Assembly (NCBI GenBank): GCA_022827095.1
Contig: JAJDTP010000021.1
Location: 1-64,000, forward strand
Length of the DNA stretch: 64,000 nt
Source of the DNA: Dehalococcoidia bacterium
Lineage (GTDB): Bacteria > Chloroflexota > Dehalococcoidia > Lucifugimonadales > UBA3495
Direction: 5' to 3'
The position numbers were made by a program, and so were the translations under genes. The notes beneath the pieces are model-generated. The model saw nothing but the letters and a program-made list of their open reading frames with translations. It was not told the DNA's origin and ran no database searches. Positions 41,675 through 42,454 of the stretch are shown one piece after another. The stretch's first letter is position 1, and the number at the start of each line of letters is the position of its first letter.

Positions 41675-42454
41675 ATGACTACCACCACTCGAGAAGTGCA
41701 CGTCTATACCAACCCTGGTTGATTCAGCTGTAGGACGCTGGAAGAATTCCTGGCGTCCAACGGTGTTCAGTATGAACACCACGACCTGCTCACAGACGAG
41801 CCGGCCCGGGAGGACCTGAAGTCCCGCGGCATTCTTTCCGCGCCCGTAACCATCATCGATGGCAGCGAGGTCATCATCGGCTACTACCCGAAGAAGTTGA
41901 TACCCGCGCTGGGTCTGGACGATGCGCCAATCGACCTTTCCGGGCGCACCGCCTGGTTGGCCGACAAGTACCAGCGGATATTGAAAGCGGCGGCGCGGGC
42001 GACTTGCGAGCTTTCCGAGGAGCAGCTATCCCAGCCCGTGCAGTGGCGACCGGAAATGCTGCGGGACACGCTTTTGCACATCGTTTCGTTCCCGGAACTG
42101 GCCTACACCAGCAGGACCCGGGGATCCATGAATACCGATGACATGCGGGCGTGCAAGGAGAGCGTGTCTCACCTGACCAAGCCCGACGACATCGCATCGT
42201 ACGCGCTCAAGGTGGCGGACGATATCACCGAGTTTCTCGATAGCGGCGACACCGAGGGCTTCGATCGCGTCGTGCCGGCCCACTACGGCGGCGAGGTCAC
42301 CGTCCTGGAACTGCTGAACATCATCCTGAGCCACAGCACCCACCATCTCAAGCAGGTGTACTGGTTCATGGACGACCAGCTAGGCCAGCCGCCGAAGGCT
42401 CCGGCGTCAGAAGAGGACATGGATGGCATCTTCACGCCGGCCCAGCTGATCTAG
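41675..42454 (+). CDS. putative selenoprotein: glutaredoxin-like domain (U-x-x-C, Sec at TGA 41720-41722) fused to DinB/S-transferase-like domain
   Basis: MTTTTREVHVYTNPG(U)FSCRTLEEFLASNGVQYEHHDLLTDEPAREDLKSRGILSAPVTIIDGSEVIIGYYPKKLIPALGLDDAPIDLSGRTAWLADKYQRI..LSHSTHHLKQVYWFMDDQLGQPP; upstream GGGAGA; one frame except the single TGA. Confidence 0.82.
41733..41758 (+). promoter_or_regulatory. candidate bacterial SECIS hairpin downstream of the UGA
   Basis: GGACGC-U-GGAA-[GAA]-UUCC-UG-GCGUCC; stem starts 10 nt after the UGA, apical loop G 21 nt after. Confidence 0.65.

Follow-up and report, generated by a model that had tools for sequence, protein, structure and literature searches.

The glutaredoxin-DinB/YfiT fusion gene at 41675..42454 (+ strand) of the window, the 64,000-nucleotide stretch of DNA analysed here, raises the question of how its in-frame UGA is decoded and which RNA structure directs the decoding. 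The host genome is that of a marine, SAR202-group member of the Dehalococcoidia (Chloroflexota). The open reading frame runs from an ATG at 41675 to a TAG at 42452-42454 with a TGA as its codon 16, such that reading through the UGA gives 259 codons before the TAG and a 259-residue protein. The glutaredoxin part is at the N-terminus; the Pfam matches are to PF00462 (4e-9), DinB_2 (9e-8), and DinB (9e-8), and the AlphaFold model (pLDDT 88) has two domains, which in a PDB comparison correspond to glutaredoxins of known structure (TM about 0.9 on the target) and to DinB/YfiT proteins. A separate second DinB protein and a GYD-domain protein are encoded nearby, upstream of the fusion gene, at 39069-39551 and 39603-39923, both on the minus strand.

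The UGA at 41720..41722 (+ strand) is almost certainly decoded as selenocysteine, at residue 16 in the motif PGUFSC. It occupies the first Cys position of the CxxC in the fusion active site (UFSC), and every one of the 43 intact orthologues of the fusion keeps it (41 belong to the family and one to each of two other families of the order). These orthologues represent many genera and have the DinB domain intact downstream, and neither Cys nor any other codon is found at this position among the 43. One more match in the family was left out because a contig end cuts it before the UGA site. As no Cys orthologue of the fusion was found, the family offers no control that dispenses with a SECIS element, and the homologues with Cys at the aligned redox position are paralogues only, the stand-alone glutaredoxins L168-L171. 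The UGA is also present in a diverged glutaredoxin-DinB group (UFTC, UATC) and in stand-alone glutaredoxins (UHFC, UGPC), where the typical hairpin, GAAAG-AGUUU-CUUUC or GUGAAAG-UGUAU-CUUUCAC, has an NGUNN loop 22-23 nt past the UGA. UGA and hairpin occur together in these paralogue groups, and a near hairpin of this type is absent in the four Cys stand-alone members read; with the conservation of the UGA and the selenocysteine machinery described below, this makes selenocysteine by far the best reading. We also note that small stand-alone Sec-glutaredoxins (L078-L089, L147-L174) are widespread in the order with near-identical NGUNN-loop SECIS elements, and that a few members have Cys and no near hairpin.

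The host genome encodes all that a bacterial selenoprotein requires, namely selA (541 bits), selB (355 bits, with the SelB winged-helix domains PF09106/PF09107), selD (376 bits), and a tRNA-Sec with anticodon UCA. The selD gene, at G000:C20:25694-26614 (L055), is a selenoprotein gene itself (CAGUAAKL), with one UGA and a hairpin whose G[G/U] loop lies about 26 nt past it. A second, truncated selB-like copy (L002, G000:C14:1630-2139) is near-identical to the N-terminal part of the selB on C26 before running into a TAG and then unrelated sequence, and is either a decayed duplicate or contamination. The first-pass annotation of this locus had proposed selenocysteine insertion by way of a bacterial-type SECIS element formed by one particular hairpin; insertion with such an element is strongly supported by the machinery, the universal conservation of the UGA, and selection acting on the RNA. 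The hairpin that the annotation named, however, is probably not the one that SelB recognises. Readings of the UGA as an ordinary stop, which is its meaning in the standard code and would make the gene a truncated pseudogene or the codon a sequencing error with a hairpin there by chance, are exceedingly improbable given that 43 of 43 intact orthologues share the UGA and have the DinB domain intact behind it, that the selenocysteine machinery is complete, and that the hairpins hold up against codon shuffling. Insertion of a different amino acid, through suppression or a code change, is very improbable too: we found no evidence in its favour, tRNA-Sec(UCA), SelA, SelB, and SelD are all present, and in an alignment with the paralogues the UGA falls on the first Cys of their CxxC site.

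Constraint on the nucleotide sequence is apparent even upstream of the UGA. The CCU and GGU codons directly 5' of it (41714..41719, + strand) are almost frozen synonymously, with observed same-codon identities of 0.94 and 1.00 compared to expected values of 0.33 and 0.38. A GGU also precedes the UGA in every selD gene read, and was noted at paralogue UGA sites as well.

Which structure, then, acts as the SECIS element? The bSECIS consensus of Zhang and Gladyshev has a loop of 3-9 nt, a stem of 4-16 bp, 16-37 nt from UGA to loop, and an MFE of -7.5 or below, with a G in the first two loop positions and N1G[G/U]NN2N as the usual pattern, in which N1 and N2 pair (PMC13188914). The hairpin described in the first-pass annotation, GGACGC-T-GGAA-GAA-TTCC-TG-GCGTCC (hairpin 1; 41733..41758, + strand), is present exactly as quoted, with a stem that starts after a 10-nt spacer behind the TGA at 41720-41722, and a GAA loop whose first base is a G located 21 nt from the UGA, both as claimed; the span had been given as 41723-41758, of which the end is right, whereas the start takes in the spacer. 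RNAfold returns hairpin 1 as the MFE structure and it folds better than shuffled sequences, the energy of 41710-41765 being -22.8 kcal/mol where shuffles average -13.5 (z -3.3) and 2 of 200 do equally well. When synonymous codons are shuffled with the protein fixed, hairpin 1 of the window gene is at -14.1 against a mean of -5.2 (p about 0.01), and the shuffles rarely recreate it, such that coding alone seldom yields the hairpin.

The two ends of hairpin 1 behave differently in the 33 orthologues that we refer to as distal-type, for which the class limits are given below. The fold, which the annotation expected to be conserved among TGA-containing homologues, is constrained at its base (GGACG/CGUCC) but drifts at its apex, where the loop varies in sequence and register (GAA, GAAU, AAUU, GGAAU) and the synonymous excess is -0.03 (codons 22-26). 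Stability of the apex is weakly favoured, p being below 0.5 in 32 of the 33 relative to apex-shuffled versions, with a median of 0.18. The window hairpin conforms to the loose bSECIS consensus (GAA loop, 21 nt, -14.1 kcal/mol), hairpin 1 of several orthologues does not, and the usual N1G[G/U]NN2N loop is found neither in the window, which has GAA, nor, in its strict form, in any of the 33. The covariation that was also looked for does exist, at pair +17/+34 (G-C in 21 of the 33, U-A in seven), but it represents about two changes on the tree, which is weak by itself, and we rejected it as independent support within the distal-type genes. A bulged U at +17 comparable to that of fdhF was likewise set aside, as in the window +17 falls on the second base of the Leu/Val22 codon and its conservation is thus uninformative. 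Lengthening of hairpin 1 by a GCUG/CGGU pairing, seen in the MFE structure of a short fragment, was rejected because CGGU pairs better in a second hairpin when the full stretch is folded.

This second hairpin is the part that the first-pass annotation overlooked: it had called the SECIS element as one hairpin, and although that one is borne out, another lies 3 nt downstream, GGUGUUC-AGUAU-GAACACC at 41762..41780 (+ strand; hairpin 2), which we propose as the SelB-binding half of the element. Its apical loop, AGUAU (41769..41773, + strand), has the NGUNN pattern seen in the SECIS loops of the Sec-glutaredoxin paralogues. Hairpin 2 alone folds at -10.8 kcal/mol (z -4.2), the 66-nt fold with both hairpins has a z of -4.6 with none of 200 shuffles as good, and in the 33 distal-type orthologues hairpin 2 is predicted to pair with a probability of about 1.0. 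In these genes codons 30-33 and 35 are identical wherever the residue is kept, an observed synonymous identity of 1.00 against 0.29-0.70 expected, and the synonymous excess of the hairpin-2 codons is 0.34 versus 0.06 beyond codon 40. The sole freely varying codon within the hairpin is Glu34 (GARCACC), which varies at the expected rate and whose GAA/GAG change preserves the pairing as U-A or U-G. Hairpin 2 is nearly invariant, and therefore shows constraint and wobble tolerance with no compensatory changes. The A-GU-A-U loop, the 7-8 bp stem, and the energy (-9.3 to -10.8 kcal/mol) fit the bSECIS loop, stem, and energy rules, and the loop is located 46 nt from the UGA, beyond the 16-37 nt of the consensus. 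No Rfam family matches 41400-42100 at E <= 1. We considered whether other genes use the two-hairpin element, but in the family's genomes the matches above noise to R1, a covariance model of the element, are confined to the fusion gene family.

The relationship between the two positions is seen most clearly across the orthologues. With class limits of at least four contiguous pairs and E <= -5, chosen after seeing the data, a scan for G[G/U]-loop hairpins in the 43 orthologues places the hairpin in the distal position only in 33 (the window gene among them), the proximal position only in nine, both positions in one (L060), and neither in none. The energy limit was -5 for orthologues and -3 for paralogues, relaxed because the published -7.5 kcal/mol drops most of the paralogue SECIS hairpins here. 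The proximal types have a near stem RACUCU-GGA-AGAGUY with the GGA loop at 17 nt, and in L135 this stem has one compensatory change, from U-A to G-C. In the other lineages hairpin 2 is lost or weakened and a G[G/U] loop is found on the near hairpin instead. Among otherwise distal-like genes, mismatches in hairpin 2 are limited to two, in L049 and L052, each of which has a proximal G[G/U] loop. The near hairpin of L049 is ACUUGAGG-AGUU-CCUCAAGU, whereas its sister L044 has AAUU in the near loop and an intact hairpin 2; L060 combines a GGA near loop with an intact hairpin 2. Protein and DNA trees inferred from the gene portion beyond the element imply at least five changes of the distal state, and the proximal and distal states go in opposite directions, distal loss with proximal gain, in four to five of five independent pairs. 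No more extreme outcome is possible, but the median p is 0.0625, as five pairs are too few for p<0.05. Altered SelB specificity as the cause of this near/far switching was considered and is not supported: in the readable genomes of both types most SelD SECIS loops are G[G/U], and such a change is therefore not needed. One contig with the SAR202 fusion gene (L114) is binned in an uncultured Mesorhizobium MAG; the sequence of its element is identical to that of L133, and the assignment to Mesorhizobium is probably a binning error.

Judging from these sequence comparisons, we consider it likely that the SECIS element is bipartite, with hairpin 1 as a spacer and hairpin 2 as the SelB site, and that near and far positions have been exchanged repeatedly. 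Hairpin 1 is probably not the SelB-recognition hairpin, because the usual G[G/U] is missing from its GAA loop, its apex is variable, and the hairpin downstream is synonymously frozen; it probably matters as a base-paired spacer that brings hairpin 2 near the UGA, a role that we infer because the base is constrained and the apex is free. A ribosome with the UGA in its A site shields roughly 10-12 nt of mRNA beyond it. Hairpin 1, beginning at +13, would thus be situated at the mRNA entry of the ribosome and would fold 26 nt out of the path, and looping these out leaves the hairpin-2 loop at 20 nt from the UGA. Hairpin 2, 3 nt further on, would adjoin hairpin 1 and offer its AGUAU loop to SelB, which could then deliver Sec-tRNA(Sec) to the UGA. 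The SelB site would have moved between two positions, because the near hairpin of related lineages carries a G[G/U] loop while their hairpin 2 has decayed. The fuller proposal, which we regard as reasonably probable, is that a distal SelB hairpin, which lies 46 nt from the UGA, is brought to it by a spacer hairpin that is not itself recognised, and that the SelB site has hopped repeatedly between near and far within one gene family of one order by way of intermediates with both hairpins.

Two other arrangements of the signal were considered. Hairpin 2 could be auxiliary, adding to hairpin 1 as a SelB pause, a second SelB site, or a control of mRNA stability or translation, and the joint folding of the two hairpins, the constraint on the base of hairpin 1, and the two intact sites of L060 are all compatible with this; we nonetheless think it improbable, as the either/or pattern in the 43 genes fits substitution better than addition. 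Alternatively, hairpin 1 could be a complete bacterial SECIS element of the ordinary kind, with SelB binding its GAA-type loop and hairpin 2 being something else. The window hairpin is within the limits for spacing, stem length, first-position loop G, and energy, and the proximal-type relatives with their near GGA loop and one compensatory pair point in the same direction, but this is unlikely given an apex that is free of synonymous constraint in the distal-type orthologues and a loop that differs between relatives and has no G[G/U] in the strict scan, and it does not explain why hairpin 2 is frozen in precisely those genes that have a degenerate near loop.

The bipartite element, if correctly interpreted, has consequences for how selenoprotein genes are found and how SECIS elements evolve. 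Search tools for bacterial selenoproteins expect a single hairpin whose loop falls 16-37 nt past the UGA, and would miss or mis-assign a signal in which the recognised loop follows a spacer hairpin and is 46 nt away. It would also show a way for a SECIS element to shift position with its function kept. Relocation of SECIS elements, in that case between bacterial and eukaryotic types, has been noted as difficult to account for (PMC4561486), and the near/far switch with its both-hairpin intermediate offers a small, testable case. In the open-access papers searched we found neither a two-hairpin bacterial SECIS element, nor a link of SAR202 with selenoproteins, nor a DinB-glutaredoxin selenoprotein fusion.

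The fusion protein shares with Sec-containing glutaredoxins (PF00462, UxxC) the glutaredoxin fold and a U as the first residue of UxxC, but differs in its added DinB/YfiT domain and in its score against the NCBIfam Uxx-star model (NF041212), 31.1 bits against a curated cut-off of 66. With the DinB/YfiT superfamily (YfiT 1rxq, BCE_2162 2p1a, DR0053 6iz2, and mycothiol S-transferase 8f5v) it has in common the helical-bundle fold of its C-terminal part and the invariant His residues, although here the DinB/YfiT part sits behind a seleno-glutaredoxin. The SAR202 element resembles bSECIS elements of the E. coli fdhF type in its location within the coding sequence just 3' of the Sec UGA, in the presence of SelB and tRNA-Sec, and in having a stable stem topped by a small apical loop with G[G/U]. 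It differs from them in that there are two hairpins, with the G[G/U] loop on the second and at 46 nt rather than 16-37 nt, and a first hairpin that has a degenerate apex and seems to act as a spacer.
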